This document shows, one piece after another, positions 1 to 40,306 of a stretch of DNA of 46,851 nt (position 1 is the first letter of the stretch; each line of letters starts with the position of its first letter). The notes under the pieces were generated by a model. It saw only the letters and a list, made by a program, of their open reading frames with translations. It had not been told where the DNA came from and searched no databases. The translations under genes and the position numbers were made by a program. The DNA is from Deltaproteobacteria bacterium. GTDB lineage: Bacteria > Myxococcota > Myxococcia > SLRQ01. The stretch spans positions 1 to 46,851 of the forward strand of contig JARGFU010000031.1 in the NCBI GenBank assembly GCA_029210625.1. The letters run 5' to 3'.

Positions 1-41
1 CGACCTCCTCGTTTCAAGGCCGCGCAGGATCGGCCTGGAGG

Positions 42-274
42 TCAGGCGCTACAAGGCGTCGTAGTTCGGACGGTTACGTGGCTACCGTCGGAGCTCACCG
101 ACCAGGGGGCCTGCTGGAGGTCGGGCGACCAGCCCTCATCGAGGAGGGAGGTCGAGCAGTCGGTGATCACCTCGACCTTGCCCGCCGGGCAGGAGAGGGC
201 TGCCGTGGCGTCAACCGGCGACAAGGCTCCGAAGAGGAGCAGGAGGGCCGCTAGAACCGGGGGGGGGCTCTCAT
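42..274 (-). pseudogene. small secreted protein, frame broken at a C9 tract
   Basis: Read on the minus strand, an ATG at 274-272 opens Met-Arg-Ala-Pro and stops at TAG a few codons later. The adjacent frame carries a convincing hydrophobic signal-peptide core (LAALLLLFGAL) followed by a short mature part with Cys residues, ending at TGA 44-42. The two frames join across nine consecutive C (259-267). One more C would give a continuous 77-residue secreted protein. The span is 233 bases, one short of a multiple of three, which agrees. It could be a decayed gene, a homopolymer sequencing error, or a slippage-switched gene. No family is recognised. Nothing else is supported in 1-41 or 275-458 apart from the leader of the next operon. 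Confidence 0.4.
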
Positions 275-458
275 CTTGCCGACACCGTCCTCTCTCCTGC
301 GGGGAGGCGAACCGAAGGGAGCGTGACAGGTCGGTGTGGGTATCGTGTGATCGGGCCCCCCGCCCACTCGCGGATCAGTCTAGGCGATCGGGGATCGCCC
401 TGTCGCTGTAGGAGATGTAGGGAATGGTCGCCCATCTGGGATACCCTGCGGCCCGACG

Positions 459-1547
459 ATGAAGCACCCCGAGATCCCCGGCCGTCAGGCCGCCATCGAC
501 GCTCACCGGGCCGCCGGTGGAGGCCTCGCGGCGGTCTATCCCATCCACCCCCCGCGGGCCCTCCTGCGCGCCTTCGGCCTCCTGCCGGTGGAGATCTGGG
601 GGCCGCCGGGCGTCGACTGTGCCCGGGCCGACGGGCACGTGCAGGCCTACGCCTGCTCGATCGTCCGGGGCGGGCTGGCCTTCCTCCTCGACGGCAAGCT
701 CGACGACGCCGACCTGATCCTGGTGCCGCACGGCTGCGACAGCCTCCAGGGGCTGGGCAGCGTGCTCATCGACTTCGTGAAGCCGAAGGCCCCGGTCGAG
801 ACCTTCTACCTGCCGCGAGGCGCGGAAGGAGGGCCCTCGCGGGCCTTCGTGAAGGAGGAGCTGCGCCGCTTGCACGACAGCCTGGTGAAGCTCACCGGCA
901 AGCAGCCCACCGAGGCCGAGCTCCTCGAGGCGCTGGAGCGTGAGGTGGACGCCGACGATCTCCTGGCCGCGCTGCTGGCCGGCCGGCGCAGGCTCGAGCT
1001 CTCGAACGCGGAGTTCTACCGGCTGGTGCGCGCCCGCGAGTACCTGCCGGCGGAGGACTTCTCCCGGATCGTCCGAGAGGTCCTCGAGGGGGCGAGCGAG
1101 GAGGAGAGCGGGGCGCCCGGCGTCGTCCTCTCGGGGCTGGTGCCCGAGCCCAGGGCGCTGCTCGAGCTCTTCGACGAGGCCGGGGTGCTGATCGTGGGCG
1201 ACGACCTCTGCAGCAGCGGGCGGCGGCTCTATCCGGCGGGGGAGGGGAGCGACGCGCTGGCCCGCATGGCCGACCGGCTGATGTCGGCGGCCCCCGACTC
1301 CACCCGGGGGGACGGGGTGCAGGCCCGCGCCGACCACCTGCTCGGCCTCTGCGCGGCCGGCGGGGCGAAGCAGACGCTCTTCCTCATCGTGAAGTTCTGC
1401 GAGCCGGAGCTCTTCTACCTGCCGCAGCTGCGCGAGGCGCTCACCGCCGGCGGGGTCGCCAGCCAGGTGCTGGAGGTGGACGTGACCACGCCGCTCGCGG
1501 ATCAGACCCGCACCCGGATCGAGGCCATGCTGGAGGTGATGTCATGA
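459..1547 (+). CDS. 2-hydroxyacyl-CoA dehydratase-family subunit, smaller (HgdB/BcrB-like)
   Basis: A 362-residue protein of the family that includes the D-component of (R)-2-hydroxyacyl-CoA dehydratases and class I benzoyl-CoA reductases. These enzymes use a [4Fe-4S] cluster in each subunit to accept a high-energy electron. Candidate cluster cysteines are C54, C66 in YACS, C93 in PHGCDS, and one near residue 247 in GDDLCSSG. This is the family's usual pattern of Cys spread over the two lobes. The ATG at 459 gives a full-length N-terminus. Its stop overlaps the next start by 4 bp, so the two subunits are probably translationally coupled in equal amounts. The substrate cannot be read from sequence. 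Double-cubane cluster proteins are relatives and a possible alternative. Confidence 0.85.
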   Translation: MKHPEIPGRQAAIDAHRAAGGGLAAVYPIHPPRALLRAFGLLPVEIWGPPGVDCARADGHVQAYACSIVRGGLAFLLDGKLDDADLILVPHGCDSLQGLGSVLIDFVKPKAPVETFYLPRGAEGGPSRAFVKEELRRLHDSLVKLTGKQPTEAELLEALEREVDADDLLAALLAGRRRLELSNAEFYRLVRAREYLPAEDFSRIVREVLEGASEEESGAPGVVLSGLVPEPRALLELFDEAGVLIVGDDLCSSGRRLYPAGEGSDALARMADRLMSAAPDSTRGDGVQARADHLLGLCAAGGAKQTLFLIVKFCEPELFYLPQLREALTAGGVASQVLEVDVTTPLADQTRTRIEAMLEVMS

Positions 1548-2896
1548 GCGCGAAGTATCCGCGGGCCGAGACCAGCGGCCTGAAGAAGGCGCAGTACCTC
1601 CTGGGCGCCAAGGTCGCGGGCGGCGCCCTGCTCAAGCTCGACCGGATGAAGCTGGCGCGGAAGCTCGCCCGCCCCCCGAAGCCCGGCCCCTTCGGGCCGC
1701 CCCTGAAGTCCTCGGCCTGGCTCAAGGAGCTGATCACCGGCCACTACCTCAAGGGCCGCTTCGCCAGCGGCGCGCGGCCCGTGGCCTGGGTCACCAGCGG
1801 CGCGCCGGTCGAGCCCCTCATCGCCCTGGGCTTCTTCCCGATCTACCCGGAGAACCACGGGGCGGTCTGCGGGATCCGCCGCAGCGCCGAGGAGATCTGC
1901 GAGGAGGCGGAGAGCGCCGGCTACAGCCGGGACATCTGCTCCTACGCCCGCACCGACATCGGCAGCATGCTCTCGGGCAAAACCCCGGTGGGCCGCCTGC
2001 CGCCGCCGGACCTGCTCGTCTGCTGCACCAACATCTGCCAGACGGTGCTGCTCTGGTACCGGGTGCTCGCCCAGCACTTCGGCTGCCCCCTGGTGAACAT
2101 CGACACCCCCTTCCTCTACGGCGAGGCGCAGGAGCACCAGATCGCCTTCGTGGAGAAGCAGCTCGAGGAGCTGGTGCGGGCCGCCGAGGAGGTGTCGGGC
2201 AACCGCCTGACCGAGAAGAAGCTTCACCAGGTGACGCGCTACTCCAAGCAGGCGACCGAGCTCTGGGCCCAGATCATCCAGATGGGCCGGCACCGCCCGG
2301 CGCCGATCACCGCCTTCGATCAGTTCATCCACCTAGCGCCCATCGTCGAGATGCGCGGCGAACCCTTCACCGTCGACTACTACGGCGCCCTCCTCGAGGA
2401 GCTGCAGGAGCGGGCGGCGCAGGGGGTCGGCGCCCTGAAGGAGGAGAAGATCCGCCTCGTCTGGGACAACCTCCCGGTCTGGCACAAGGTGCGCTGGCTC
2501 TCGGAGGTGCTGGCCGAGTCGAACGCCACCCTGGTGGCCTCGACCTACACCAACGCCTGGGGTGAGCTCACCGAGTTCATCGATCCCGAGAACCCCATGC
2601 GCTCGGCGGCGCTGACCTACCTCCACCCGATCCTCAACCGCGGCACCGGCCACAAGCTCTCCCTGATGAAGGGGATGGTGGAGTCCTTCGAGGCGGACGG
2701 CGTCATCCTCCACTCGGATCGCTCCTGCAAGCCCTACTCGATCGGCCAGGTCGATCAGCGGGAGCGCCTCACCAAGGAGGCGGGGGTGCCCGCGCTCCTG
2801 CTGGAGGCGGACCACAACGATCCCCGGGCCTTCTCCGAGGAGCAGTCGCGGGCGCGGGTCGAGGCCTTCCTCGAGGTGGTGGAGGCGAAGGCGTGA
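1544..2896 (+). CDS. 2-hydroxyacyl-CoA dehydratase-family subunit, larger
   Basis: A 450-residue partner of the preceding gene. The C-terminal part contains the family's typical stretch GVILHSDRSCKP (Cys near residue 395) followed by LLEADHNDPRAFSEEQ, as in HgdA/HgdB and FldB/FldC proteins. Further candidate iron-sulfur ligands are C109, C119, C132 and the C160-C161/C165 group. With the upstream subunit it should form the heterodimeric dehydratase/reductase that receives electrons from the activase encoded next. Such enzymes are oxygen-sensitive, which suggests anaerobic or microaerobic use. The ATG overlaps the upstream stop (ATGA) and its own stop overlaps the next GTG start by 4 bp. Confidence 0.87.
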   Translation: MSAKYPRAETSGLKKAQYLLGAKVAGGALLKLDRMKLARKLARPPKPGPFGPPLKSSAWLKELITGHYLKGRFASGARPVAWVTSGAPVEPLIALGFFPIYPENHGAVCGIRRSAEEICEEAESAGYSRDICSYARTDIGSMLSGKTPVGRLPPPDLLVCCTNICQTVLLWYRVLAQHFGCPLVNIDTPFLYGEAQEHQIAFVEKQLEELVRAAEEVSGNRLTEKKLHQVTRYSKQATELWAQIIQMGRHRPAPITAFDQFIHLAPIVEMRGEPFTVDYYGALLEELQERAAQGVGALKEEKIRLVWDNLPVWHKVRWLSEVLAESNATLVASTYTNAWGELTEFIDPENPMRSAALTYLHPILNRGTGHKLSLMKGMVESFEADGVILHSDRSCKPYSIGQVDQRERLTKEAGVPALLLEADHNDPRAFSEEQSRARVEAFLEVVEAKA

Positions 2897-3681
2897 GGCA
2901 GGAGATCGTCGGGCTGGGCGTGGACGCGGGCTCGACCACCACCAAGCTGGTGGGGGTCGACGGCCGGGGAGAGCGCATCTTCGATCGGATCGAGCCGACC
3001 CGGCCGCAGCTGCAGCTGCAGGTGAAGGGGCTCCTGGCCGTCGCCCGGGCCTCGGGCGCGAAGGAGGGGACCCCGGTGGTGGCCACCGGCTACGGCCGCA
3101 AGCTGGTCGAGGACGCCGACAAGCGGGTCACGGAGATCACCTGCCACGCGCGGGGCGTCTTCCGCAGCGTCCACCACGGCGGCACGCTCATCGACATCGG
3201 CGGGCAGGACGCCAAGGCGATCCGCTTCGACGACAAGGGCGCGGTGCAGGACTTCGCCATGAACGACAAGTGCGCGGCGGGCACCGGGCGCTTCCTGGAG
3301 GTGGTGGCCGGGCGCCTGGGCCACGATCTCGACGAGTTCGCCCACCTGGCCGCGAACGCCGGCGAGACCACCGCCATCTCCAGCACCTGCACGGTCTTCG
3401 CCGAGTCGGAGATCATCTCGCTGATCGCCCAGGGGGAGACCATCGAGGCCATCGCCCGCGGCCTGCACACCTCCCTGATGGGGCGGATCGCGGCGCTGGC
3501 CCGCAGCGTGACGGTCACGCCGCCCCTGCTCCTCTCGGGGGGCGTGGCCCGCTCGCCGGCGGCGCAGCGCTACCTCGGCGAGGCGCTGGGGCTGCCGGTG
3601 GAGGTGCCCGAGGGGCCCCAGCTGATGGGCGCCTACGGCGCGGCCCTGATGGCGCTGGACATCGCCGACGGAAGGGGTTGA
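2893..3681 (+). CDS. acyl-CoA dehydratase activase (BadF/BadG/HgdC ATPase family)
   Basis: A 262-residue ASKHA-fold ATPase. The phosphate-binding motif GVDAGSTTTKLVG is at residues 9-21, GGQDAK at 103-108, and the cluster-binding helices carry C127 (NDKCAAGTGRF) and C166 (SSTCTVFAESE). In this family a homodimer holds one [4Fe-4S] cluster between these two cysteines and uses ATP hydrolysis to fire a low-potential electron into the dehydratase. The length is normal for HgdC/FldI. The start is GTG, overlapping the preceding TGA. The position directly after both subunits confirms the system. A ferredoxin or flavodoxin donor is not encoded here. Confidence 0.92.
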   Translation: MRQEIVGLGVDAGSTTTKLVGVDGRGERIFDRIEPTRPQLQLQVKGLLAVARASGAKEGTPVVATGYGRKLVEDADKRVTEITCHARGVFRSVHHGGTLIDIGGQDAKAIRFDDKGAVQDFAMNDKCAAGTGRFLEVVAGRLGHDLDEFAHLAANAGETTAISSTCTVFAESEIISLIAQGETIEAIARGLHTSLMGRIAALARSVTVTPPLLLSGGVARSPAAQRYLGEALGLPVEVPEGPQLMGAYGAALMALDIADGRG

Positions 3682-3685
3682 GGAC

Positions 3686-5014
3686 GTGTCGAAGGGAATG
3701 CTGGAGCTGCGCTTCGCGATCGAGGAGCGAGGGTCGAGCAGCCGCCGGGAGGTCCTCGGCGGCCTGACCACCTTCCTCACGATGGCCTACATCGCCTTCG
3801 TCAACCCGGCGATCCTCTCGGCCGGCGGCATGCCGCGGGAGGGGGCCTTCCTCGCCACCTGCCTCGCGGCGGCGGTCGGCTGCCTCCTGATGGGGCTGCT
3901 GGCCAACCTCCCGGTGGCGCTGGCGCCGGGCATGGGGCTCAACGCCTTCTTCGCCTTCGGGATCTGCCTGGGGGCCGGAGTGCCCTGGCAGACGGCGCTG
4001 GGGATCGTCTTCTGGAGCGGCGTGCTCTTCCTCCTGCTGACGGTCACCGGCGCCCGCCGGGCCATCGTCAAGGCGATCCCGAAGAGCCTCCGCTTCGCCG
4101 CCGCCGCCGGCATCGGCCTCTTCCTGGCCCTCATCGGGCTGGAGCACGCCGGGCTGGTGATCGATCACCCGGTCACCCTCGTGACCCTGGCCTCGCCCAC
4201 CAGCGCGCCGATCCTGGTCGCCCTCTTCGGGCTGGCGGTCGGCGTCGTGCTGATGGCCCGGGGCGTGATCACGGCGGTCTTCTGGAGTCTCCTGGCCTCG
4301 ACGCTCCTCGCCCTGATCCTCGGGGTCGTGCCGCTGCCGGAGGCGGTGCTGGCGCTGCCCACGGGATCGCTGCCGGGGGCCGAGATCGACCTCCTGGGCG
4401 CGCTGAAGCTGCAGTACCTGCCCCTGATCTTCGTCGTGCTCTTCTTCGACGTCTTCGACACCCTCGGCACCCTGCTCGGGGTCAGCCACGAGGCCGGGCT
4501 CCTGGACGAGGAGGGTGAGCTGCCCGTCCTCGATCGCGCGATGGGCGCCGACGCCGGGGCGACCCTGGCGGGCGCGCTCCTGGGGACCTCGACCGTGACC
4601 TCCTACATCGAGTCGGGGGCCGGGGTGGCGGTGGGCGCCCGCACCGGCCTCGCGGCGCTGGTCACCGGCGCCGCCTTCCTCCTGCTGATGCCCTTCGCGC
4701 CCCTCGCGGCGGTGGTGGGGGCGCCCATCGAGGGCGGCCTGCACCCGGTGACCGCGCCGGCGCTGATCCTGGTGGGCGTCCTGATGGCCCGTACCCTCGC
4801 CGAGATCCCCTGGAAGGAGACCCTCGAGGGGGTGCCGGCCTTCTTCACCGTCGTGCTGATGCCCCTGACCTTCAACATCACCCACGGGCTGGCCGCCGGC
4901 ATCGTCTGCTGGGCCGGGATGCGGCTGGTGGCGGGGCGCGGGCGGGAGGTGCACTGGGTGCTCTACCTGATCTGTGGGCTCATCGTGCTGCGGTACGCGC
5001 TGCTGGCGGTCTAG
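3686..5014 (+). CDS. NCS2 family permease (AzgA-like purine transporter)
   Basis: A 442-residue polytopic membrane protein. The N-terminus RREVLGGLTTFLTMAYIAFV with the following NPAIL and the APGMGLNAFFAF segment are characteristic of the AzgA branch of nucleobase:cation symporters (adenine, guanine, hypoxanthine). FFDVFDTLGTLLG in the middle is the conserved region carrying substrate-binding residues. The translation start is GTG 4 bp after the activase stop, so it belongs to the same operon. Its pairing with a 2-hydroxyacyl-CoA dehydratase system is unexpected, and either it imports a purine-related substrate or the link is only transcriptional. Confidence 0.88.
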   Translation: MSKGMLELRFAIEERGSSSRREVLGGLTTFLTMAYIAFVNPAILSAGGMPREGAFLATCLAAAVGCLLMGLLANLPVALAPGMGLNAFFAFGICLGAGVPWQTALGIVFWSGVLFLLLTVTGARRAIVKAIPKSLRFAAAAGIGLFLALIGLEHAGLVIDHPVTLVTLASPTSAPILVALFGLAVGVVLMARGVITAVFWSLLASTLLALILGVVPLPEAVLALPTGSLPGAEIDLLGALKLQYLPLIFVVLFFDVFDTLGTLLGVSHEAGLLDEEGELPVLDRAMGADAGATLAGALLGTSTVTSYIESGAGVAVGARTGLAALVTGAAFLLLMPFAPLAAVVGAPIEGGLHPVTAPALILVGVLMARTLAEIPWKETLEGVPAFFTVVLMPLTFNITHGLAAGIVCWAGMRLVAGRGREVHWVLYLICGLIVLRYALLAV

Positions 5015-5017
5015 CCC

Positions 5018-5950
5018 ATGCGAGCTCTTCGCTTCGAGGGTGAACACCCCAGGGTGGCCACGGTGGACACGCCGGTTCCCGGTCCAGGCGAGGCCCTGGT
5101 GAAGGTCCGCCTGGCCGGGGTCTGCAACACCGACCTCGAGATCGTCCGGGGCTACATGGGCTTCACGGGCACCCTCGGCCACGAGTTCGTGGGGGAGCTC
5201 GCGGACGGCCAGCGGGTGGTGGGCGAGATCAACCTGGGCTGCGGCGCCTGCCCGGCCTGCGCGGCGGGCCTCTCCCGTCACTGCCCCACGCGAACCGTGC
5301 TGGGGATCCTCGGCAAGGACGGCGCCTTCGCCGAGCTGCTCACCCTGCCGGAGCGGAACCTCCACCCGGTCCCGGCGTCGATCACGGACGAGCAGGCGGT
5401 CCTGGTCGAGCCCCTGGCGGCGGCCCTGGAGATCCTCGATCAGGTGACGATCGAGCCCGCGACGCGGGTGCTCCTCCTCGGCGCCGGCAAGCTCGGCCAG
5501 CTCATCGCCCGGGTGATCGCGAGCACCGGCGCCCGCCTCACCGTCCTCGGACGCAGCCCGGCCAAGCTGAACCTCCTGGAGGCCGAGGGGATCGCGGTCA
5601 CGACCGAGCCGCCGCCGGCGGGGTCCCAGGACCTGGTGATCGAGGCGACCGGCAACCAGGCCGGGCTCGAGCTCGCCCTCCAGGCGGTGCGCCCGCGAGG
5701 CACGGTCGTGCTCAAGAGCACCTTCGCCGGCACCCACACCTGGAACGCGGCCAAGGTGGTCATCGACGAGCTCACGATCGTGGGCTCGCGCTGCGGGCGC
5801 TTCGAGGCGGCCCTGCGCTGGCTGGAGGAGACCGGCGCGGATCTCTCGCCCCTCGTCTCCGATCGCTTCCCGCTCTCGAGAGGAGACGCCGCCCTCGACC
5901 GCGCGGCCGAGGACGGCGTCCTCAAGGTGCTGCTGGATCCGGCCGGCTGA
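5018..5950 (+). CDS. zinc-dependent MDR alcohol/threonine dehydrogenase-like
   Basis: A 310-residue medium-chain dehydrogenase/reductase. C36 (GVCNTD) and H55-E56 (GHEF) fit the catalytic zinc site. C75, C78, C81 and C89 form the structural zinc lobe. The Rossmann nucleotide motif GAGKLGQ lies near residue 154. It is shorter than typical 340-350-residue family members. It starts 3 bp after the permease stop and completes the five-gene operon. It converges on the next gene with a 4 bp gap. The substrate is unknown. Oxidation of a hydroxy compound or sugar alcohol feeding the upstream pathway is an inference only. Confidence 0.85.
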   Translation: MRALRFEGEHPRVATVDTPVPGPGEALVKVRLAGVCNTDLEIVRGYMGFTGTLGHEFVGELADGQRVVGEINLGCGACPACAAGLSRHCPTRTVLGILGKDGAFAELLTLPERNLHPVPASITDEQAVLVEPLAAALEILDQVTIEPATRVLLLGAGKLGQLIARVIASTGARLTVLGRSPAKLNLLEAEGIAVTTEPPPAGSQDLVIEATGNQAGLELALQAVRPRGTVVLKSTFAGTHTWNAAKVVIDELTIVGSRCGRFEAALRWLEETGADLSPLVSDRFPLSRGDAALDRAAEDGVLKVLLDPAG

Positions 5951-5954
5951 TCCG

Positions 5955-8180
5955 CTACTGGCAGATCCCCGGGCAGTCGGCGCCACCCGCGTTCGGGTCG
6001 CAGTCGTCGCTCGGGTCGTCGACGCAGAGGAGACCCTGGGCGCAGGGCAGCCCGGCGAAGCCGCCGCAGGCGTCGCCCACCTGACCCACGCAGCTCGGAT
6101 CGCCCGAGGCGCAGGTGGCGTCGGGCTCGCAGATCCCGGCGCAGTCGGCGCCGGTGGCCGGGTCGCAGTTGTCGGTCGGATCGTCCACGCAGACGTGGCC
6201 CGGGGCGCAGGGTACGCCGGCGAAGCCGCCGCAGAAGTCCCCGGTGACGCCGCAGGCCGGGATGCTGCTCCGGCACTGGCCCCAGGCGTCGCAGGACTTC
6301 AGGACGGCGGTCTCGGCGCAGGTGGGATCGTTCGGATCACAGAGGGTGCAGCCCTCGCCGCAGGCCTTCCCCCGGCAGGGATCGTAGGGGAGGCCGTCGG
6401 TCTGGCAGACGCCGTACACCATGCAGGGGGCACCGCAGGGCATCGTCGGATCGTTGGCGCAGTCGGGGCACCAGGTCTCCATGATGCAGTAGGCGCCGGA
6501 GGGGCAGTCGGCGTCGGCCTGGCACTCCGAGGGCGGCGCGTTGGTGCCGCACTCGGGGAAGGCCCAGCTGCAGCCGCCGCTGGCGTCGCACCACTTCACC
6601 ACGTCGGTCTCGGCGCAGCTGGCGTCGGCGGGGTCGCAGAGCTGGCAGGTGTCGCCGCAGGCCTTGCCGGCGCAGGGCTGGTAGGTCCCGCCGCAGGCCG
6701 GCGGAGCGCCGCCGGCGGTGGCGCTGCAGGCGCCGTTCGCGTCGCAGAAGCCCATCAGGCCGTCGGGGGTGGCGCAGAGCTCACCGCAGGGGAGCCCCGC
6801 GCAGTCGCTGCTGGTGGGCTGGCAGGCCCAGCCGGCGTAGCAGGGCATGGCGCAGGCCGGATCGGCGTCGACGCAGGGCGGGCAGTACTCGTAGGGGAGG
6901 CAGGCCTCGCCCGGCGCGCAGTCGGCGTCGGCGTTGCACTCGGGCGGCGGCACCACGCCCCCGCACTCCACGGCGCCGGAGGGGTCGGGCATCACGCAGG
7001 CGCCCCAGCCATCGCAGACGCCCATCACCGCGGCGCAGCCCTGGTTCGGGTCGGCGGGATCGGTGGCGTCGCAGGGGTTGCAGAGCTCGCCGCAGAGCTT
7101 CCCGGCGCAGGGGTCGCCCGGCGTGGGGAGGCAGACGCCGTGGCTGTAGCAGACTCCGTCGCAGGTCGGGTCGTTCGGATCGGAGCAGCCGGTGCACCAG
7201 GCCTCGCCCACGCAGATCTCGCCCGGGGCGCAGTCGAGGTCGCCCTGACACTCGGGGGGCGGGGGCGGGAGGATGCCGCAGTCGACCTGGGCCGGGTCGG
7301 CGTAGACGCAGGCCCCGAAGCCGTCGCAGGTCATCAGCACGCCGGGCTCGACGCAGCTCGTGGCGTCGGGCGGACAGAGGGAGCAGGGCTCGCCGCAGGC
7401 CGCGCCGGCGCAGGGGACGTAGGCGCCACAGGTGGGCTGGTTCATGCCGCAGAGGCCGGCGTCGTTGCAGGTGAGGACCACCGCGGGCTCGAGGCAGCCG
7501 GTGGCGTCCGGCGGGCAGAGGCTGCAGGTGTCGCCGCAGGCCAGGCCGGCGCAGGGATCGTAGGCGCGGCCGGCGCAGGTGCTGCCGTCGACATCCGGCG
7601 CGCCGGGCACGCAGGCGCCGTTCGCGTCGCAGTAGGTGGGCGCCCCCATCGGGATGCAGCTCGGGTCGCCGTCGGGGCAGGTGTTGCAGGGCTCACCGCA
7701 GGCGCGCCCGAAGCAGGGGGCCGAGATGTCGATGGCCCCGTAGTTGGAGAAGTGCCGCAGGTTGCCGGTGAGGGTCCGGGCCGCGGGATCGTAGGTGCTG
7801 CCCTCGATCACCTGCGGGGCGGCGCCGTCGAGGTTCGCCAGCACCAGGGTGCCGCCGGGCTGGTAGTCACCCACGTCGAAGCGCATCGTTACCGGGCCGT
7901 CGAAGGTCAGGCCCTCGGGCCCCAGGCGGTAGGCGCGCCCCACCAGGCCGGTGGGCGTGAGGTCGGAGAAGCCGACGGTCACCAGGGTGCCCTCGGCGAC
8001 CGCGCCCCGGGTGAAGTCGACCGTCAGGCGGCCGTCGGGGCTCACCGCGACGCGGGTGCCGCCCTCGATCGTGGTCTCGGTCTCCTCCTGGACCGCGTTC
8101 TCCACGGGGCAGCCGGCCGAGAGCAGGAGCAGCCCGGTACAGCCCAGGGCAGCAGCCAGATTCCAGTACTTCCGCTTCAT
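5955..8180 (-). CDS. Cys-rich repeat lipoprotein with ZU5-like N-terminal domain
   Basis: A 741-residue exported lipoprotein. The N-terminal signal ends in LLLLSAGC with lipidated C24. Residues of about 45-150 resemble a ZU5-type beta domain (RLGPEGLTFDGPVTMRF, then HFSNYGAI), common in Myxococcota lipoproteins. The rest is a long array of Cys-rich modules built on PCAGxxCGxxC, a short LC spacer, and CDAxGxC. The modules are partly degenerate and interleaved with CxxDxDCxxGExC units. Many disulfides are expected, implying an extracellular location. A strong SD (GGAGGGAAACGAG) precedes the ATG. The catalytic function, if any, is unknown, and a structural or ligand-binding surface protein is most likely. 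Confidence 0.8.
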   Translation of the reverse strand: MKRKYWNLAAALGCTGLLLLSAGCPVENAVQEETETTIEGGTRVAVSPDGRLTVDFTRGAVAEGTLVTVGFSDLTPTGLVGRAYRLGPEGLTFDGPVTMRFDVGDYQPGGTLVLANLDGAAPQVIEGSTYDPAARTLTGNLRHFSNYGAIDISAPCFGRACGEPCNTCPDGDPSCIPMGAPTYCDANGACVPGAPDVDGSTCAGRAYDPCAGLACGDTCSLCPPDATGCLEPAVVLTCNDAGLCGMNQPTCGAYVPCAGAACGEPCSLCPPDATSCVEPGVLMTCDGFGACVYADPAQVDCGILPPPPPECQGDLDCAPGEICVGEAWCTGCSDPNDPTCDGVCYSHGVCLPTPGDPCAGKLCGELCNPCDATDPADPNQGCAAVMGVCDGWGACVMPDPSGAVECGGVVPPPECNADADCAPGEACLPYEYCPPCVDADPACAMPCYAGWACQPTSSDCAGLPCGELCATPDGLMGFCDANGACSATAGGAPPACGGTYQPCAGKACGDTCQLCDPADASCAETDVVKWCDASGGCSWAFPECGTNAPPSECQADADCPSGAYCIMETWCPDCANDPTMPCGAPCMVYGVCQTDGLPYDPCRGKACGEGCTLCDPNDPTCAETAVLKSCDAWGQCRSSIPACGVTGDFCGGFAGVPCAPGHVCVDDPTDNCDPATGADCAGICEPDATCASGDPSCVGQVGDACGGFAGLPCAQGLLCVDDPSDDCDPNAGGADCPGICQ

Positions 8181-8243
8181 CTCGTTTCCCTCCAGGAAGA
8201 GTGCGACCGTTCGAGAGCTTGGTTGCCGAAGGGCCGCTCGACC

Positions 8244-8273
8244 TTCAAAAATAACAGGGGCGCTCAGGGCGCC
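8244..8273 (-). terminator. candidate intrinsic terminator after anti-sigma gene
   Basis: On the minus strand GGCGC-CCTGA-GCGCC forms a short GC-only hairpin (8273-8259). It is followed by CCTGTTATTTTTG, the only T-rich stretch in this area. The stop codon of the FecR-domain gene lies in the loop. The stem is only 5 bp, so confidence is moderate. Confidence 0.45.
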
Positions 8274-9859
8274 AGGCGCCGCAGGAGGGCCTGGTGCCGG
8301 GCATCCCAGGCCGGGGAGAGGCTCTCGAGCCGGGTGGCGGAGAGCAGGCGCCGGGCCGCGGCCGGGTCCGACGCGAGGCGCTCCTCGGCCAGGCGGATCC
8401 GCAGGCGCTCCAGCTCGGGGCTGTGCAGGCCCTCGGCGGCCAGCAGCGCCTCGAGGGCGGCGCCGGGCTCGCCCTCGCGGCCGAGGAGCTCGACGCTCAG
8501 GGCCACCCGCTCCGGGGCCAGCATCCCCTCGGGGAAGCGGCGCTCCGCCTCCTCCAGGGCGGCCAGCGCCGCGCCGGCCTGGCGCTGCCGGTCGCGCAGG
8601 ATGGCCAGCTGCAGCAGGCTCTCCTCGGCCAGGCCTTCTCCGGCGGGGTGGTGGGCCACGCGGGCGTAGGTCGCGGCGGCCTCCTCCAGCTGGCCCGCGC
8701 GGCGGTGCCCGTCGGCCATCACCGCCAGGGCCGCGGCCTCGATCTCCTCGCTGACGGCCTGGTCCAGGACGCCCCGGGCCAGATCCACCGCCTCGCTCGG
8801 GGCCTGGCGCAGCACGCGGCGGGCCTCGGCCAGCTGGCGGCGCTGCTCCCGGGGGCGATCCGGATCGGCGACGTGGGTGGGCGGCGGGCTGAGCTCGACC
8901 GGCGCGGGCGGCGGCGCGGGGGCCGCGACCGGCGCCGGGCGGTCACGGCGGGGGCGACGCTGCCGGGCCCGCTCGCGGAGGGCCAGCTCGGCCAGATCGT
9001 CGGGATCGACCCCCGGGGCCTCGGCGGCCTCGGCGGGGGCCGGCGGCGGGGCGAGGGTGGGGGCCGGAGGGGCCTCCTCCTCGGGCGGGAAGACCGCCCG
9101 GTCGCCGGCGCGCAGCTCGAGGCGGCGGCGGCCGTCCGGGCTCACCGCGAGGACGACGCCGTGCTCGACCTCGACCACCGTGCGGCCCTCGGCCCGCTCC
9201 ACGCTGAAGGCGGTCCCGACCACGGTGACGAGCGCCTCCTCGGTGTGGACCGCGAAGGTGCGGCCCTCGCGCAGGGGCGTGACCTCGGCGTGCACCCGGC
9301 CGGCCCGCAGGCGGACCTCGCGCACGTAGCGGTCCCGCTCCCTTCGCCCGGGGGCGGCCCGCAGCTCGAGCTCGCTCTTCGGGGCCAGGGAGAGGCGGGA
9401 GAGGTCGGTGGCGATCCGGGTCTCGCCCCGGGTGAGCAGGGAGGTCGCCAGGGGGACGGGATCGTCGGTGGAGAGGAGGCCGGCCTCGGGGTGGCCGAGG
9501 GTGGCGAGGGAGCCCTCGGTGACCACCGCGCGCTCCCGGGCGTCCACCTGGAGGAGGAGGGCGAGGACGGCCGCGGTGGCGGCGAGGCCCAGCCCCAGGA
9601 CGAGGCGCTGGGAGAGGGAGGGGCGGGGGCTCGCCGGGAGGGCGGTCGCCACGCGCAGCTCGGCCAGGATCCGCGCCTCGACCCCGGGGCGGGGCACCGG
9701 CGCGTGCTCGGCGAGCTCTTGGCGGATGCTCACCAGCCCCCCGGCGGCCTGCTGGCAGTCCGGGCAGCCTTCCAGGTGGGCGGCCAGGGCCTCGGGCGAG
9801 CCGGTGCGCAGGGCCGGCGGCAGGAGGAGCTCCTCGGTCCGGGGGCAGCGCGCGCTCAT
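8264..9859 (-). CDS. anti-sigma factor: zinc-finger, TM, FecR domain and TPR-like region
   Basis: A 531-residue membrane regulator. The N-terminus has an anti-sigma zinc-finger pattern (HLEGCPDC, HxxxCxxC) at about residues 28-35. A single membrane helix (LGLAATAAVLALLL) follows, then a FecR-type periplasmic domain (ETRIATDL to VGTAFSVERAEG and VVEVEHGVV). A Pro/Ala-rich linker and an alpha-helical TPR-like C-terminus complete it. The ATG at 9859 was chosen over longer upstream frames because it overlaps the sigma-factor stop by 4 bp and starts exactly at the zinc-finger domain. It presumably sequesters the sigma factor encoded upstream and releases it on an envelope signal. Confidence 0.85.
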   Translation of the reverse strand: MSARCPRTEELLLPPALRTGSPEALAAHLEGCPDCQQAAGGLVSIRQELAEHAPVPRPGVEARILAELRVATALPASPRPSLSQRLVLGLGLAATAAVLALLLQVDARERAVVTEGSLATLGHPEAGLLSTDDPVPLATSLLTRGETRIATDLSRLSLAPKSELELRAAPGRRERDRYVREVRLRAGRVHAEVTPLREGRTFAVHTEEALVTVVGTAFSVERAEGRTVVEVEHGVVLAVSPDGRRRLELRAGDRAVFPPEEEAPPAPTLAPPPAPAEAAEAPGVDPDDLAELALRERARQRRPRRDRPAPVAAPAPPPAPVELSPPPTHVADPDRPREQRRQLAEARRVLRQAPSEAVDLARGVLDQAVSEEIEAAALAVMADGHRRAGQLEEAAATYARVAHHPAGEGLAEESLLQLAILRDRQRQAGAALAALEEAERRFPEGMLAPERVALSVELLGREGEPGAALEALLAAEGLHSPELERLRIRLAEERLASDPAAARRLLSATRLESLSPAWDARHQALLRRLAP

Positions 9860-10455
9860 CGCGAGACCTCCTCGTCCGGCGGCAGGGCCGCCAGGATCTC
9901 CTTGCGGGCGTGGTGGAGGCGGGTCCAGACCGTGCCCTCGGGGATCCGGAGGGCCCGGGCGATCTCCGGCCCCGGCATCCCCTCGAGCTCGTGGAGGACG
10001 TAGACCGCTCGCTTGCCCTCCTTCATCGAGAGGAGGACCTCCCAGACCTTGCGGAGGCGGTCCCGGGACGCGGCCGAGCGCTCCGGCGCGTCGGCGGCGC
10101 TCTGCCTCGTCTCCGCCTGCAGCTCCAGGGCGAGGGCCTCCCGCAGCCGGCGGCGACGGCCCCGGCCCCGCATCCACTGCAGGGTCGTGCGCATCGCGAT
10201 CCCGCAGAGCCAGGTGGAGGGCTTGCAGTCGCCCCGGAAGCTCGCGAGGCCCCGGTGGGCCTGGAGGAAGGTGAGCTGGGTGAGGTCCTCGAGGTCCGCG
10301 GGGGAGGCCCCGGGCCCCAGGCTCCGCCCGACGACCCGGTAGACCATCGCGAAGTGGGCCCGGTAGAGCCGCTCGACCGTCAGCTCCACCTCACCGGTGG
10401 CAGCCTGCGCCCGGGAGGCGGCCTCGGGGCCTGGGAGGGTCATCGCGTAGAGCAT
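9856..10455 (-). CDS. ECF-type RNA polymerase sigma factor
   Basis: A 199-residue sigma-70 family protein with only regions 2 and 4. Region 2 includes VERLYRAHFAMVYRVV, the DLEDLTQLTFLQAHRGL core, and GDCKPSTWLCGIAMRTTL. Region 4 contains EGMPGPEIARALRIPEGTVW with a helix-turn-helix and TRLHHARKE. The stop overlaps the anti-sigma start (ATGA), the usual coupling of ECF factors to their regulators. No clear SD precedes the ATG at 10455 or the alternative in-frame ATG at 10443. The immediately upstream secreted protein gene (34 bp gap) is probably in the same operon. Confidence 0.92.
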   Translation of the reverse strand: MLYAMTLPGPEAASRAQAATGEVELTVERLYRAHFAMVYRVVGRSLGPGASPADLEDLTQLTFLQAHRGLASFRGDCKPSTWLCGIAMRTTLQWMRGRGRRRRLREALALELQAETRQSAADAPERSAASRDRLRKVWEVLLSMKEGKRAVYVLHELEGMPGPEIARALRIPEGTVWTRLHHARKEILAALPPDEEVSR

Positions 10456-10489
10456 TCACGAGATGAGTTGCCGGGACCAGGGGCGCCCT

Positions 10490-11470
10490 TCAAAAAATCG
10501 CGCGCAGGCCCACCTCGAGGACCGGCATCAGGAAGCCCTCCTCGATCCCGGTGCGCTCCTCGCCCAGGCTCGGCGGCAGCACGACCCGCCGGGGCAGGGG
10601 CCGCAGGGCGAAGCCCGCCCGCCCGAGGAGCTCGACCCGGGGATCCCCCGGATCGAGGGCCAGGTTGGCCGTCACCTGGGCCCAGGGGGCCGGATCGAAG
10701 AAGTGGGAGACGACCCCCTTCGAGCCCGGCGCCGCCGGGAAGCGGGCCCGGGCGGAGGTCCAGCCCAGGAGCAGGCCGGCGGCGGCCCCCAGCCCGAGCT
10801 CGCCGCGCACGCCCCGCAGGAGGCCCAGCTCGACCTGCGCCGCGAGCTGGGCGTCGGTGATCCGCGCCTCGACCTCGGCGGTGGTGATGGTCTGGGGGGG
10901 CGCCGCCTGGAGGCGGACCGAGAGGCGCAGGAGGTCGGTGCCCACCCCGGACTCCAGGGCCACCCCGGGGTGAGGCAGCGCCGGGCGCTGCCACCAGGGG
11001 AGAGTGGCGAGGAGGGCCAGCGCGGCCCGGCGCCTCGCCGGGGCCGGCGCGGCGGGCTCTCGCTCGAGCTCGGCCTCGACCGGTGCCGGCTCCAGCTCGA
11101 CGAGGGCCTCGGGGGCCACGTCGTCTCCGGGGCCGAAGCGGGCCAGGGTGCGCGAGGTGAGGAAGACCACCACCCGCAGGGCGGCCTCCTCGCCGCCGCC
11201 CAGGGCGAGCTCCCGGGAGAGGAGGAGGCGCCCGCCGGGGCGACGCAGCTCCAGGCGCCAGCCCTCACCGGCGGGCAGCACGATCACCCGCATGGCGTGG
11301 GGCTGCTGGAGGGCGGCCCGGGCTCCGGGGAGCTCCTCCTCCAGGGCCAGCTCCAGCGCGGGCGGCGCCGGGCCGCGGATCAGCAGGTAGTGCGGCCCGC
11401 CCTCGGCCCGGAGGGCGGCCGGGCCCCCGAGGGTCACGAGCAGGACGAGCAGGGAGAGGGCGCGGCGCAT
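10490..11470 (-). CDS. secreted hypothetical protein, possible outer-membrane barrel
   Basis: A 326-residue protein with a signal peptide (LLVLLVTLGGPAALRAEGG). Residues of about 20-120 form a compact alternating domain. After a Pro/Ala-Arg segment, residues of about 165-326 show amphipathic beta-strand patterning and end in LEVGLRAIF with a C-terminal Phe, as in outer-membrane beta-barrels. It precedes the ECF sigma and anti-sigma genes, and in myxobacteria an envelope protein often completes such a module. No known family was recognised. It could be the sensed or controlled envelope component. Confidence 0.7.
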   Translation of the reverse strand: MRRALSLLVLLVTLGGPAALRAEGGPHYLLIRGPAPPALELALEEELPGARAALQQPHAMRVIVLPAGEGWRLELRRPGGRLLLSRELALGGGEEAALRVVVFLTSRTLARFGPGDDVAPEALVELEPAPVEAELEREPAAPAPARRRAALALLATLPWWQRPALPHPGVALESGVGTDLLRLSVRLQAAPPQTITTAEVEARITDAQLAAQVELGLLRGVRGELGLGAAAGLLLGWTSARARFPAAPGSKGVVSHFFDPAPWAQVTANLALDPGDPRVELLGRAGFALRPLPRRVVLPPSLGEERTGIEEGFLMPVLEVGLRAIF

Positions 11471-11490
11471 GTCGGCCCCCCGACGCTCCC

Positions 11491-12090
11491 TCAGGCCTCG
11501 GCGCCCGAGCCCGAGATCATGAAGCCGCCCGGGGTCAGGCCCAGGCGGCGCAGCGCCTCGTCCCAGCGCTCCTCGAAGGGCACGTCGAAGACCAGGTCCT
11601 CGGTCAGGCCCAGGGGCAGCCAGGCCCCGGCGTGGGTCTCGAGCTCGAGCTGGCCCGGTCCCCAGCCGGCGTAGCCGAGGATCACGTGGAAGGGGCCGGC
11701 CCGCCGCCCGCTGACGAAGTCCTCGAGGATGTCCCGGGTGGCGGCCACCGCCAGGTGCTCGCCGACGCCGAGGATGTCCTCGCCCTCGTCACCCTCGAGC
11801 TCCTCGTCGCTGCGATGGAAGAGGAGCCAGACCGCGGTCTGCTGCACGGGCCCGCCCACCAGCACGTCGTGGGAGCCGAGGCCCGACTCCCGGGCCAGCT
11901 TCGCCAGGTCCTCGTCGACGTTCTCGAGGAGGGTCTCGAGGTCGATGGTCGCCGGGCGGTTCACCACGAAGCCCAGCGCCCCCTCCTGGTTGAACTGCGC
12001 CATCAACACCAGGGTCTCGGCGAAGTTCGGATCCTCCAGCTGGGGTCCCGAGATCAGGAACCCCGGCGCGACGGTGGCGACCTCGGTCAT
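11491..12090 (-). CDS. yqgE: YqgE/AlgH family protein
   Basis: A 199-residue member of the YqgE/AlgH (UPF0301) family. It shows APGFLISGPQLEDPNF and the ETLVLM that follows, GALGFVVNRP, LVGGPVQQ, and GYAGWGPGQLE. All are hallmark segments of this conserved cytoplasmic family, whose biochemical role is still unclear (AlgH was first linked to alginate regulation in Pseudomonas). The length is typical. It lies 9 bp downstream of the M16 peptidase gene and 20 bp upstream of the secreted barrel-like gene, so co-transcription in this minus-strand block is likely. Confidence 0.93.
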   Translation of the reverse strand: MTEVATVAPGFLISGPQLEDPNFAETLVLMAQFNQEGALGFVVNRPATIDLETLLENVDEDLAKLARESGLGSHDVLVGGPVQQTAVWLLFHRSDEELEGDEGEDILGVGEHLAVAATRDILEDFVSGRRAGPFHVILGYAGWGPGQLELETHAGAWLPLGLTEDLVFDVPFEERWDEALRRLGLTPGGFMISGSGAEA

Positions 12091-12099
12091 GAGATCAGT

Positions 12100-14943
12100 C
12101 TACTCGTCCTTCGGCACCGCTTCGACCTCGACCATCTCGATGGCGCCGCCGAGCTCGCCGAGGGCCTCCTTGATCAGGCTGGCCGGGCCGACGAGGCCGA
12201 TGACCTCGTTGCCGATGCAGGGCTCGAGCTGCGCGGCGACCACCTCGGCGTTCACCTTGGAGAGGCGGTCCGGCACGAAGGCCAGGCTCTGCGGGGCGGC
12301 GCCCCAGGCGGCGCGGCTCATCAGCTCGCCGGTCATCGCCTGCAGGCCGAGGTAGCGGCTGTGGGAGGAGCGGGCGATCTTCCAGCGGGCCTTGTTCAGG
12401 CGGGCGGGATCGATGCCGCCGTCCTTCAGCTCCTGCATCCGGGAGAGGATGGTCTTGATGGCCGGGATGGCCTTCTGGACCATGATGTTGCCGCCGACGC
12501 CCAGGGTGGCGGCGCCGCCGGGCAGGGCGTTGATGTAGGCGCGCACGCCGTAGCTCGCGCCCGACTGCTTGCGGATGGTCTGGAAGAGATCGTCCGAGAG
12601 CATCGAGGAGAGGACGTCGCGGATCTCCTCGGTGTCGGCGGTCGCCCGGGGAAGCTGGCAGGCGAGGGTGAGCTCGACCTGGGTGGCGTCGGGTCGGTCG
12701 GCCAGGAGGATGGTGCGCTTGGGCGGCGAGGGCAGGGAGGGCAGGGGATCGATGGCGGTGCCCGGGTTCGCCGGACGCCACTTCTCGAAGCGCTCCCGCA
12801 CCTTCGCCTCGGCCTCGGCCAGATCGATGTCACCGACCACGAAGAGGGTGGCGTTCGCCGGCGCGAAGACCCGGTCGATGTAGGTCTTGTAGAAGTCCTC
12901 GGTCAGCGGCTCGACGGCGTCGAGGTTCGCCTCCCGGATGCCCAGCGGGTGCTGGGGCATCAGCTTCGCGGCCACCGCCTTGGAGAGCTGGTAGCGGTGG
13001 TTGCGCTTCATCAGCTTCTGCTGGCGGCGCAGGGTCTCGAACTGGATCCGCCGCTCGTCGATCTCGATGTAGGAGCGCACCGTCTCGACCTTGGTGGCGA
13101 GGATGTCGAGGGCCGCCGGCAGGTTGCCGGAGGGGGTCGAGGTGGAGAAGTAGTCGGCGGTGGCGGTGGTGCCGCCGCCCTCGCGGCCGGCGACCTCGAG
13201 GGCGGGCCGGGCGTCGTCGCGGATCCAGACGTAGTCGCCGGCGAAGTAGGGGGTGATGCCGTAGTCGCCGCCGCCCATCCGCAGGGTGGTCTGCACGAAG
13301 GGCGTGTTGCCGTGCTTCTTCAGGACGACCTTGAGCTGGTTGGCCAGCCGGAAGGTCTTCATCGTCGTCTCGTCCGGCGCCACGGTGGCGGCCTTGACTT
13401 GATCGTCGCTGAGCTTCTCGAAGAAGGGCTTGAGGGCCTCGGACTCCTCGAGGAGGGCGCCGGACCAGGCGGCGTCCGAGTCGAGGTTGATGTCGGGCTC
13501 CTTCTCGTCCTTGTCGAGGGGCTCGATGATCATCGCCACCGCGCGGTCGCGGTTCAGGTACTTGTAGGCGAACTGGCGCATCTCGAGGTCGTTGAAGCTG
13601 TTGAGCTCGACGATGGCCTTGGAGAAGGCGTTGGGCTCGCCGGTGTAGTGGATGCTGTCGGCGACCTCGAGGGCACGCATGAGGCTGGCCGTCGAGAGGA
13701 AGACGTCCGCCATCCGGTAGGTGCGCATCCGCAGGAAGGCCATCTTGGTGAGGTTGGCGGAGGAGACGTCCCAGGCCTCCCAGGCGCCGTCGATGGCCTT
13801 GCGGGCCACGACCTCGGGATCCATGTCCTCGGTGGGCTGGATGATGCAGATGACCTGGGTGCCGTGCATCCCGCCGTTCGGGAAGCAGCCCATGCCCTCG
13901 ACCTTGTCCTCGTCGTGGAGGGAGTCCTTGCGCAGGTAGGCGCCCACGGCGTTGTTGAGCATCGTGGTGGCCGACTGCATCAGCGCGTCCTGGCCGCGGT
14001 AGGAGCCGGGCAGGGACCAGGCGACCAGCACGTTGGTGGAGGTGACCGGGCCCTTCACCCGCTTGATGCTCTTCGAGTAGGGCATCGGCGGCGCCGGCGG
14101 CGCGGGGGCCTCACCGGAGAGGCGCACCTTCGGGGCCGCCAGCTCCAGGGGGGCGTCCGGGGCGGAGCCCGGGGCCGCGACCAGCTCGCGGGGGAAGGTC
14201 TTGCCGAGCAGCTCCGGCACCTTCGCCGGATCGAAGTCGCCCACGTAGACGGTGGTCGCGTTGTCCGGGCGGTAGTTCTCCTTCACCCACTTCTGCACGT
14301 CGGCCAGGGTGATCGAGGTGAGGCTCTCGTGGGAGCCGATGATCGAGCGGTGGTAGGGGTGATCCTCGGGGAAGAGGAGGGGGTTGAGATCCTCGAGGGA
14401 GCGCCCGAGCTCCTCCATCTCGACCCGCTGCCGCAGCTCGTTGCGGACGACCTCGATCTCGACCTTCACCACCTCCTCGGTGACGTTCTCGAGGGGGTTC
14501 TGGATGCGGGCCGCGTCCAGCCGCATCAGATCCTCGAGGGCCGCCTTCGGGGCGATGGCGAAGTAGGTGGTCTGATCGGAGTTGGTGAAGGCGTTGGAGA
14601 CCGAGCCCAGGGAGTCGAGGGTCTCCCAGACGGTGGGGACGCCCTCGCCGTGGCGGGCCCGGAAGATCAGGTGCTCGACGAGGTGGGCGAGGCCCTCCTT
14701 GCCGATCGGATCCTGGGTGGCGCCGCTGCCGAAGGTCGTGACCGTGACCACCGAGGCCTGGTCGTGATCCTCCTGGAAGAAGAGGCGCAGGCCCGAGGGC
14801 ATCGGGAAGTCGAGGCCCTGCAGATCGTAGGGCTTGAGCTTGGGCTCGTAGAGGCCCGCGGTCTTGATGGCGGCGCAGCCGGCGGTGAGGCCCATGAGGG
14901 CGAGGAGGACGGCGAGGCGGCGCAGGATCGGGCGGTTCTTCAT
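12100..14943 (-). CDS. M16 (insulinase/pitrilysin) peptidase lipoprotein, two halves fused
   Basis: A 947-residue protein with lipobox LTAGC (C23), so it is anchored as a lipoprotein. The first M16 unit has the zinc motif H87-LV-E90-H91 and the third ligand E169 within EIEVVRNE, matching the pitrilysin spacing closely. The second half (from about residue 500) is a catalytically silent M16 repeat with LFVVGDIDLAEAEAKV and ASYGVRAYINALPGG, which in this family closes the peptidase clamshell. The single-chain arrangement resembles pitrilysin rather than the two-gene bacterial pairs. Degradation of periplasmic or surface peptides is the expected role. An SD-like AAGGGAG precedes the ATG. Confidence 0.92.
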   Translation of the reverse strand: MKNRPILRRLAVLLALMGLTAGCAAIKTAGLYEPKLKPYDLQGLDFPMPSGLRLFFQEDHDQASVVTVTTFGSGATQDPIGKEGLAHLVEHLIFRARHGEGVPTVWETLDSLGSVSNAFTNSDQTTYFAIAPKAALEDLMRLDAARIQNPLENVTEEVVKVEIEVVRNELRQRVEMEELGRSLEDLNPLLFPEDHPYHRSIIGSHESLTSITLADVQKWVKENYRPDNATTVYVGDFDPAKVPELLGKTFPRELVAAPGSAPDAPLELAAPKVRLSGEAPAPPAPPMPYSKSIKRVKGPVTSTNVLVAWSLPGSYRGQDALMQSATTMLNNAVGAYLRKDSLHDEDKVEGMGCFPNGGMHGTQVICIIQPTEDMDPEVVARKAIDGAWEAWDVSSANLTKMAFLRMRTYRMADVFLSTASLMRALEVADSIHYTGEPNAFSKAIVELNSFNDLEMRQFAYKYLNRDRAVAMIIEPLDKDEKEPDINLDSDAAWSGALLEESEALKPFFEKLSDDQVKAATVAPDETTMKTFRLANQLKVVLKKHGNTPFVQTTLRMGGGDYGITPYFAGDYVWIRDDARPALEVAGREGGGTTATADYFSTSTPSGNLPAALDILATKVETVRSYIEIDERRIQFETLRRQQKLMKRNHRYQLSKAVAAKLMPQHPLGIREANLDAVEPLTEDFYKTYIDRVFAPANATLFVVGDIDLAEAEAKVRERFEKWRPANPGTAIDPLPSLPSPPKRTILLADRPDATQVELTLACQLPRATADTEEIRDVLSSMLSDDLFQTIRKQSGASYGVRAYINALPGGAATLGVGGNIMVQKAIPAIKTILSRMQELKDGGIDPARLNKARWKIARSSHSRYLGLQAMTGELMSRAAWGAAPQSLAFVPDRLSKVNAEVVAAQLEPCIGNEVIGLVGPASLIKEALGELGGAIEMVEVEAVPKDE

Positions 14944-14980
14944 GACGGGCTCCCTTCTTCGAGCCCGGCAAGGTAGACGC

Positions 14981-36104: not shown

Positions 36105-36899
36105 CTAGGACACCCGGCGGAGGCGATGGGCCGCGAGCTGGTGGGCTGGCGTGACCAGCCGGCGGAAGGCCAGCAGGGCGGCGATGAGGGAGCCGATGGC
36201 CGCCCCCGCCGCGATCATGAACATGACCACGATCTGGTACTTCACCGCCTGCATGGGGGGCTCGCCCGCCAGGATCTGGCCGGTCATCATCCCGGGCAGG
36301 GTGACGATCCCCGCGACGGTCATCACGTTGAGGATGGGCACCATCCCGGTGCGGGCGGCCTCGGCGACGATCGGCCGGGTGGCCTCCCAGCCGGTGGCCC
36401 CCAGGGCCAGCCAGCCCTCGACCTCGACCCGGCGGGTGTCGAGATCGGCGGTGATCCGATCCAGGCAGAGCGAGAGGCCGGTGAGGGTGTTGCCCAGCAC
36501 CATCCCCATCAGGGGGATGAGGTAGCGGGGCTCGTACCAGGGGTCCACGCCGATCACGATCTCGGTGACGGTGAAGGTCACCAGGACGCAGCTCACCGAG
36601 ACGGCGAGGAGGGCGTCGAGCCAGATCCCCCGGTAGCGGCGGCCCGTCCGGCGCACGCCGGCGATGCCGGCGTTGACGACCATCGAGAGGAGGATGGCCG
36701 CGATCACCCACCAGCGGTCGAGGGCGAAGACCCAGCGCAGGACCAGGCCCACCAGGAGGAGCTGCACCACCGTCCGCGCCGCGGCGACGGCGATCCGCCG
36801 CTCCAGCCCCAGGCGCAGGGCGAGGGAGACCCCGCCGGCGACGGCCACCAGGCTGCTGGAGAGGAGGATGTCGAAGGCGGTGATCGGCAGGGTGTTCAC
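36105..36899 (-). CDS. fetB: FetB/YbbM-type ABC transporter permease (UPF0014)
   Basis: A 264-residue membrane protein with about seven helices. RTVVQLLLVGLVLRWVF, the PLMGMVLGNTLTGLSLCLDR block and NVMTVAGIVTLPGMMTGQIL are the conserved UPF0014 segments. The E. coli relative pairs with FetA in iron export and oxidative-stress resistance. The start overlaps the ATPase stop by 4 bp. Which ion or metabolite this copy moves is not determined by sequence. Confidence 0.9.
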   Translation of the reverse strand: MNTLPITAFDILLSSSLVAVAGGVSLALRLGLERRIAVAAARTVVQLLLVGLVLRWVFALDRWWVIAAILLSMVVNAGIAGVRRTGRRYRGIWLDALLAVSVSCVLVTFTVTEIVIGVDPWYEPRYLIPLMGMVLGNTLTGLSLCLDRITADLDTRRVEVEGWLALGATGWEATRPIVAEAARTGMVPILNVMTVAGIVTLPGMMTGQILAGEPPMQAVKYQIVVMFMIAAGAAIGSLIAALLAFRRLVTPAHQLAAHRLRRVS

Positions 36900-37519: not shown

Positions 37520-37532
37520 CGGGCGCCCCGAC

Positions 37533-38078: not shown

Positions 38079-38086
38079 CGCGTCCG

Positions 38087-39667: not shown

Positions 39668-39673
39668 GCGGAC

Positions 39674-39961
<288 letters not shown>

Positions 39962-39970
39962 CTAGGGGTC

Positions 39971-40261: not shown

Positions 40262-40306
40262 TTCTTTCGTTCCTCTCGTTGCTGGGGGGTAGCCCCGTTT
40301 GAGTCG

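Follow-up and report, generated by a model that had tools for sequence, protein, structure and literature searches.

A probable 2-hydroxyacyl-CoA dehydratase system from an uncharacterised branch in a myxococcal genome

The dehydratase/reductase superfamily and the assignment of the triad

Known 2-hydroxyacyl-CoA dehydratases (HADs) come mostly from fermenting anaerobes, in which their genes stand beside that of their CoA-transferase. Here we describe a triad of genes that probably encodes an enzyme of this type at positions 459-3681 of contig JARGFU010000031.1 (assembly GCA_029210625.1), from a member of the Myxococcota deposited as Deltaproteobacteria bacterium. The window, that is, the whole stretch of DNA analysed, is the entire contig of 46,851 bp; its base 1 is a contig end, and only 458 bp are visible upstream of the first gene. 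The triad codes for two putative subunits of the dehydratase component D, a HadC/BzdN-like B and a HadB-like A, and for an ATP-dependent activase, component A, and its pair of HGD-D genes (459-2896) is the sole one in a host genome of 6.1 Mb that is 98% complete. In the HAD mechanism, which serves as the analogy throughout, the activase uses ATP to send one low-potential electron through B to A, where a ketyl radical is formed (PMC11574389). In the class I benzoyl-CoA reductase (BCR) subunit BzdO, Cys95, Cys128 and Cys380 hold an open [4Fe-4S] cluster and Tyr97 and Tyr298 bind the thioester oxygen, and the dehydratase subunit HadC holds a [4Fe-5S] cluster (PMC11971306).

At the family level, both subunits pass the 28.4-bit cut-off of Pfam HGD-D (B, 1.1e-48 and 167 bits; A, 1.1e-74 and 252.5 bits), and the activase matches BcrAD_BadFG (4.1e-49) and TIGR00241 (4.4e-68, 229.5 bits against a cut-off of 125.4). 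With two HGD-D subunits and a two-cysteine activase, the triad qualifies as a member of the BCR/HAD (HGD-D) family of radical enzymes. The nearest chains by sequence in the Protein Data Bank (PDB) are 3o3m_B for B (4.2e-27) and 3o3m_A for A (3.6e-65), and the top chain for the activase is 4eht_A, the activator of 2-hydroxyisocaproyl-CoA dehydratase (1.9e-54), with both cysteine motifs identical. The AlphaFold2 (AF2) models of B and A (pLDDT 89 and 88) find 3o3n_B (TM 0.90/0.87) and 3o3m_A (TM 0.81/0.91) as top Foldseek matches, and for the predicted folds of both subunits HadBC is closest in the PDB, before Mbd, Bzd and the double-cubane-cluster proteins (DCCP). The NCBIfam equivalog cut-offs are missed for HadB (255 against 750 bits), for HadC (112 against 700 bits) and for BCR (178.7 against 486.55 and 127.5 against 448.6 bits). 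On this evidence from sequence and predicted fold, we estimate a probability of about 0.6 that the triad is complete and self-sufficient and encodes an ATP-primed radical enzyme resembling the (R)-2-hydroxyacyl-CoA dehydratases in type but belonging to an uncharacterised branch.

Cluster ligands, active site and predicted reaction

In subunit A, Cys132, Cys165 and Cys395 align with HadB Cys84, Cys117 and Cys346 and with the three cluster cysteines of BzdO. Ser85 and Glu103 align with HadB Ser37 and Glu55, which we take to be its catalytic residues. The combination by which a HAD is recognised, a three-cysteine subunit with an open-site [4Fe-4S] cluster together with equivalents of Ser37 and Glu55, is thus predicted for A, and the residue alignment gives it an active site like that of HadB (Ser85, Glu103, Tyr134, Tyr335, Trp339 and Cys395-Lys396). 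The equivalent of Ser85 is Pro in the myxococcal Bcr-type proteins, Ala in MbdO and Ser in BzdO, and that of Lys396 is Asn, Arg and Glu, respectively; as judged from the alignment, both residues of A go with the HAD type. Neither Trp46 nor His131 of BzdO is conserved in A. Tyr134 and Tyr335 align with the thioester-binding Tyr97 and Tyr298 of BzdO, and since their equivalents are present in nearly all aligned rows, they back a CoA thioester as substrate and offer no choice between reactions. In the activase, Cys127 (NDKCAAGTGRF) and Cys166 (SSTCTVFAESE) both align with 4eht and are presumably the cluster ligands.

Subunit B has three invariant cluster cysteines (Cys66, Cys93 and Cys314) and a further one, Cys251, in a DDLCSSGRR motif. 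Six cysteine positions are common to DCCP and BzdN; HadC keeps four of them and MbdN three, and B has four (66, 93, 251 and 314), with Pro at position 28 and Asp at 280. The earlier note on this DNA had raised the possibility of an unstudied branch of the double-cubane family, and a DCCP-type triad that reduces small molecules would agree with the cysteine kept at the distal-sub-cluster position 251 and with weak matches to the double-cubane model NF040772 (52.6 and 76.1 bits, cut-off 350). However, two ligand positions are replaced in B, and members of the window family are heterodimers in which A is the open-site subunit. Because B has four of the six positions, like HadC, a double cubane in the window is argued against and was rejected on the cysteine count, and placing the triad in the DCCP family is hardly credible.

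By analogy with HADs, the triad enzyme would be of the oxygen-sensitive, ATP-activated iron-sulfur type. In the activase homodimer, Cys127 and Cys166 would hold a single [4Fe-4S] cluster as the bridge between the two protomers, and the protein would take an electron from ferredoxin or flavodoxin; ATP hydrolysis would push this electron into the A/B heterodimer, where it may travel by way of the B cluster to the [4Fe-4S]-OH2 cluster at the catalytic site of A (ligands Cys132/165/395, with an open fourth iron). There the electron would turn the CoA thioester into a ketyl radical, loss of water would yield a 2-enoyl-CoA, and the electron would be recycled. It is from this analogy that we infer the electron flow, dehydration as the reaction and the thioester nature of the substrate. 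Matches elsewhere in the host genome fit the proposed mechanism: four POR_N proteins, which are potential reductants of ferredoxin, acyl-CoA dehydrogenase matches at more than 10 places and one CoA_transf_3 protein, located away from the triad.

Several observations weigh against the dehydratase assignment. At position 87 of A, which lies near the active site, the window has Ala; most of its subgroup and the Desulfobacteraceae have Ala or Gly there, against Phe in HadB, in HgdA and in the other subgroup, so that the substrate may differ; the pocket around this position may likewise differ from that of HadB and HgdA. The host encodes three COX1-family oxidases, which is unusual for so oxygen-sensitive an enzyme, and given these oxidases low-oxygen conditions are presumably those in which the enzyme is active. 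Beside the triad the window holds no CoA-transferase, ligase or enoyl-CoA reductase gene; nor does an electron-transfer flavoprotein (ETF) gene adjoin it, in line with the contrast drawn in the earlier note, which described dehydratase genes as usually linked to CoA-transferases or ETFs. The gene order B-A-activase, moreover, is that of bcrC-B-A-D and not the activase-A-B of the Fusobacterium and Proteus loci examined.

This order also speaks for another reading, in which the triad is an ATP-dependent reductase acting on benzoyl-CoA or some other CoA thioester. The same reading is favoured by the N-terminal extension of A, which is longer than the N-terminus of HadB and brings the protein near the length of BzdO and MbdO, and by the alignment of B with BzdN almost as well as with HadC (Foldseek TM 0.88 against 0.90). 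Nevertheless, the window locus has a single activase, whereas the Bcr-type loci of the phylum (L079, L080 and L082) have two; in both sequence and fold, HadB is the nearer relative of A; and the HAD-like Ser85 and Lys396, the lack of the BzdO residues Trp46 and His131 and the separate position of the Bcr/Mbd clade all stand against a reductase, which we regard as unlikely.

Phylogenetic position and gene neighbourhood

A search for relatives of A over 195 genomes of the phylum found them in 46, and a wider scan covering genomes of 84,980 species added loci from Schekmanbacteria, an Acidimicrobiales metagenome-assembled genome (MAG), a betaproteobacterial MAG and Desulfobacteraceae. The window clade, composed of Myxococcota and scattered MAGs, is separate in the trees of both subunits (support 98/97 for A and 100/100 for B). 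The HAD references form a clade of their own (100/99 in the A tree, 100/100 in the B tree) with the window outside it, and the Bcr/Mbd clade stands apart as well (99/99 and 99/96). The 58-row A tree held one suspect row, G055, with a very long branch and probably frame-broken, and was rebuilt without it. BzdO, DCCP and MbdO are long branches whose exact places are unsure, and the branching order among the clades is not settled deep down in either tree. Neither subunit thus groups with the HadBC/Hgd, Bzd, Bcr/Mbd or DCCP references, and on these trees the view holds that the branch is uncharacterised and lies within the dehydratase/reductase superfamily but not among the double-cubane proteins. 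Of the earlier proposal, therefore, the unstudied branch survives and its double-cubane affiliation does not. Among the papers searched, none names 2-hydroxyacyl-CoA dehydratase together with myxobacteria. A tblastn search of plasmids returned distant relatives only, at about 30% identity or less; some plasmid-labelled records of 2.1-4.1 Mb, from Fusobacterium vincentii and Proteus mirabilis, resemble misfiled chromosomes, with metabolic genes among their content.

Other members of the superfamily were encountered in the same searches. The myxococcal loci L079, L080 and L082 carry a pair of HGD-D genes and a pair of activase genes in succession, group with MbdO/MbdN and are probable class I BCRs of the phylum. 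Three further loci (L080:9919-11870, L081:1281-3256 and L082:16021-18029) have an A-type subunit and an activase with no B gene detected; in these A-type subunits KTCPHNS or KTCPNNS replaces RSCKPYS, and they form a distinct clade (100/100). The B subunits of the Desulfobacteraceae relatives (L038-L044, L046-L048, L050 and L052) have all six BzdN/DCCP double-cubane cysteine positions, although the A subunits paired with them show active-site residues of the HAD type. A more speculative and rather doubtful proposal is that the window clade is a substrate-distinct 2-hydroxyacyl-CoA dehydratase branch, spread as a self-contained B-A-activase cassette, which together with these Desulfobacteraceae relatives would represent intermediate stages at which the double cubane was being lost in the evolution towards dehydratases.

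As the earlier note had described, and as open reading frames and Pfam matches confirm, the triad is the first part of a row of five genes (459-5950, all on the + strand) in the order B, A, activase, permease and zinc-dependent medium-chain dehydrogenase/reductase (MDR; Table 1). Within the triad each gene overlaps the next by 4 bp, and gaps of 4 bp and 3 bp separate activase from permease and permease from MDR. All five reading frames score as coding by codon usage. Their GC content is 68-73%, and that of the remainder of the first 20 kb is 67-79%. No convincing coding frame occupies positions 1-458, and neither a sigma-70-like promoter nor an intrinsic terminator was found in positions 1-6100; from the spacing we infer that the five genes are co-transcribed. 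The permease matches Xan_ur_permease (PF00860, 1.1e-37) and is 43% identical over 434 amino acids (aa) to Escherichia coli AdeP (b3714), which assigns it by homology to the AzgA subfamily of NCS2 purine permeases and bears out the label AzgA-like given to it earlier; for its start, the gene caller favours ATG 3698 over GTG 3686. The MDR matches ADH_N (1.9e-18), carries the four-cysteine structural-zinc motif CGACPACAAGLSRHC and reaches no NCBIfam equivalog cut-off.

Table 1. Coordinates of the five-gene row and of the microcompartment locus in the window
Feature	Position	Strand	Remark
B subunit	459-1547	+	362 aa
A subunit	1544-2896	+	450 aa
Activase	2893-3681	+	262 aa
AzgA/NCS2 permease	3686-5014	+	442 aa, GTG start
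Zinc MDR dehydrogenase	5018-5950	+	310 aa
BMC-domain proteins	37533-38078, 39971-40243	-	microcompartment locus
PduP/EutE-type acylating aldehyde dehydrogenase	38087-39667	-	microcompartment locus
EutN/CcmL protein	39674-39961	-	microcompartment locus
CcmP-like BMC-domain protein	40307-40936	-	microcompartment locus

It had been proposed that the five genes form one pathway, in which the permease would import a purine or another heterocycle and the triad and MDR would reduce or dehydrate it. The spacing and common strand, which imply co-transcription, and the likeness of the permease to AdeP agree with this idea, but the relatives do not. In 24 of 28 clade loci the sequence extends 1.5 kb or more beyond the triad on its downstream side, and none of these 24 has a permease or MDR homologue beside it. 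Permease orthologues occur in 39 of the 195 genomes, several of which lack any triad relative, and MDR orthologues (48-55% identity) in five other genomes; the two were together in none of the 16 orthologue loci read with their flanks, and those sampled lie away from any triad. The HAD-type active site and thioester-binding tyrosines of A do not suggest heterocycle reduction either. With the permease linked to the triad in no relative, purine or heterocycle reduction was rejected, and a single pathway of five genes is very unlikely. A literature search for 2-hydroxyglutaryl-CoA dehydratase with purine permeases gave no paper. In the best reading, the permease and MDR genes are unrelated to the triad and were added next to it in this lineage; the triad has the purine permease for a neighbour in this genome alone, and the permease gives no clue to the substrate or function of the enzyme. 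Of the two findings that the earlier note named as refuting its proposal, permease linkage confined to this locus was obtained, and a position of the subunits inside a characterised clade was not.

The order B-A-activase, on the other hand, recurs through the clade, with -4/-4 overlaps in most of it. The 82 neighbour proteins of the clade triads include no Pfam or NCBIfam family more than twice, and since the neighbours are not conserved, this genomic context says nothing on function. In the relative L043, an AMP-binding CoA ligase gene lies directly upstream, at the start of B, and genes for proteins of the same similarity cluster occupy this place in L044, L048 and L036, which makes a CoA thioester a likelier substrate than an imported purine and suggests that the acyl group comes from an acid that an AMP-forming CoA ligase activates. 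L048 has a short-chain dehydrogenase/reductase (SDR) gene between A and activase, and the L051 genes adjoin those for thiolase, 3-hydroxyacyl-CoA dehydrogenase, acyl-CoA dehydrogenase and 2-oxoacid:ferredoxin oxidoreductase. The contexts of L043, L044, L048, L036 and L051 point to acyl-CoA metabolism. In L049 and L051 (about 5338-16000) the HGD-D pair, with no activase detected, lies in a cluster with genes for 2-oxoacid:ferredoxin oxidoreductase subunits, thiolase, 3-hydroxyacyl-CoA dehydrogenase and acyl-CoA dehydrogenase, and in L051 a gene for a tetratricopeptide repeat (TPR) protein follows A.

Elsewhere in the window, the - strand at 5955-8180 encodes a 741-aa cysteine-rich protein that begins like a lipoprotein and matches Myxo_Cys_RPT weakly; its gene is convergent with that of the MDR, their stops being 4 bp apart. 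This protein and the named relatives point to Myxococcota as the source. A microcompartment locus occupies 36105-40936 on the - strand, where an ABC ATPase and a UPF0014 protein follow the microcompartment genes listed in Table 1.

Comparison with known systems

The triad is a genuine and complete enzyme system, known in its kind but belonging to a clade that is unstudied. If the dehydratase assignment is right, the whole clade carries a HAD-type enzyme as a free-standing triad in Myxococcota, here in a host with three COX1-family oxidases.

The closest described system is HadBC with HadI of Clostridioides difficile (3o3m, 4eht), the top match in sequence and fold, which shares with the window a heterodimeric component D with one activase, the same cluster cysteines, Ser37/Glu55 and the RSCK motif in A. 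It differs in that identity in the fold alignments is about 30% for A and 22% for B, the clades are separate, and the window has the order B-A-activase, a longer N-terminus of A, Ala87 for Phe39 and no HadA-type CoA-transferase nearby. The Fusobacterium locus L160 (activase-A-B), whose record carries no annotation and which we take from general knowledge to encode a 2-hydroxyglutaryl-CoA dehydratase, likewise has the three components and a matching active-site motif (RSCKPWS against RSCKPYS); its A is 26.5% identical, its gene order is different, and it falls with HadB at 100/99. Class I BCRs (BzdNOPQ, MbdONPQ, Bcr) have in common with the window the superfamily, an open-site [4Fe-4S] subunit and the order B-A-activase, but they have two activase subunits and other residues at positions 85, 87, 168 and 396 and form a separate clade. 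DCCP (6eno, 7yyl), finally, share the superfamily fold and the activase but are homodimers with six cysteines per subunit, whereas the window shows four in B and a far greater distance in A.

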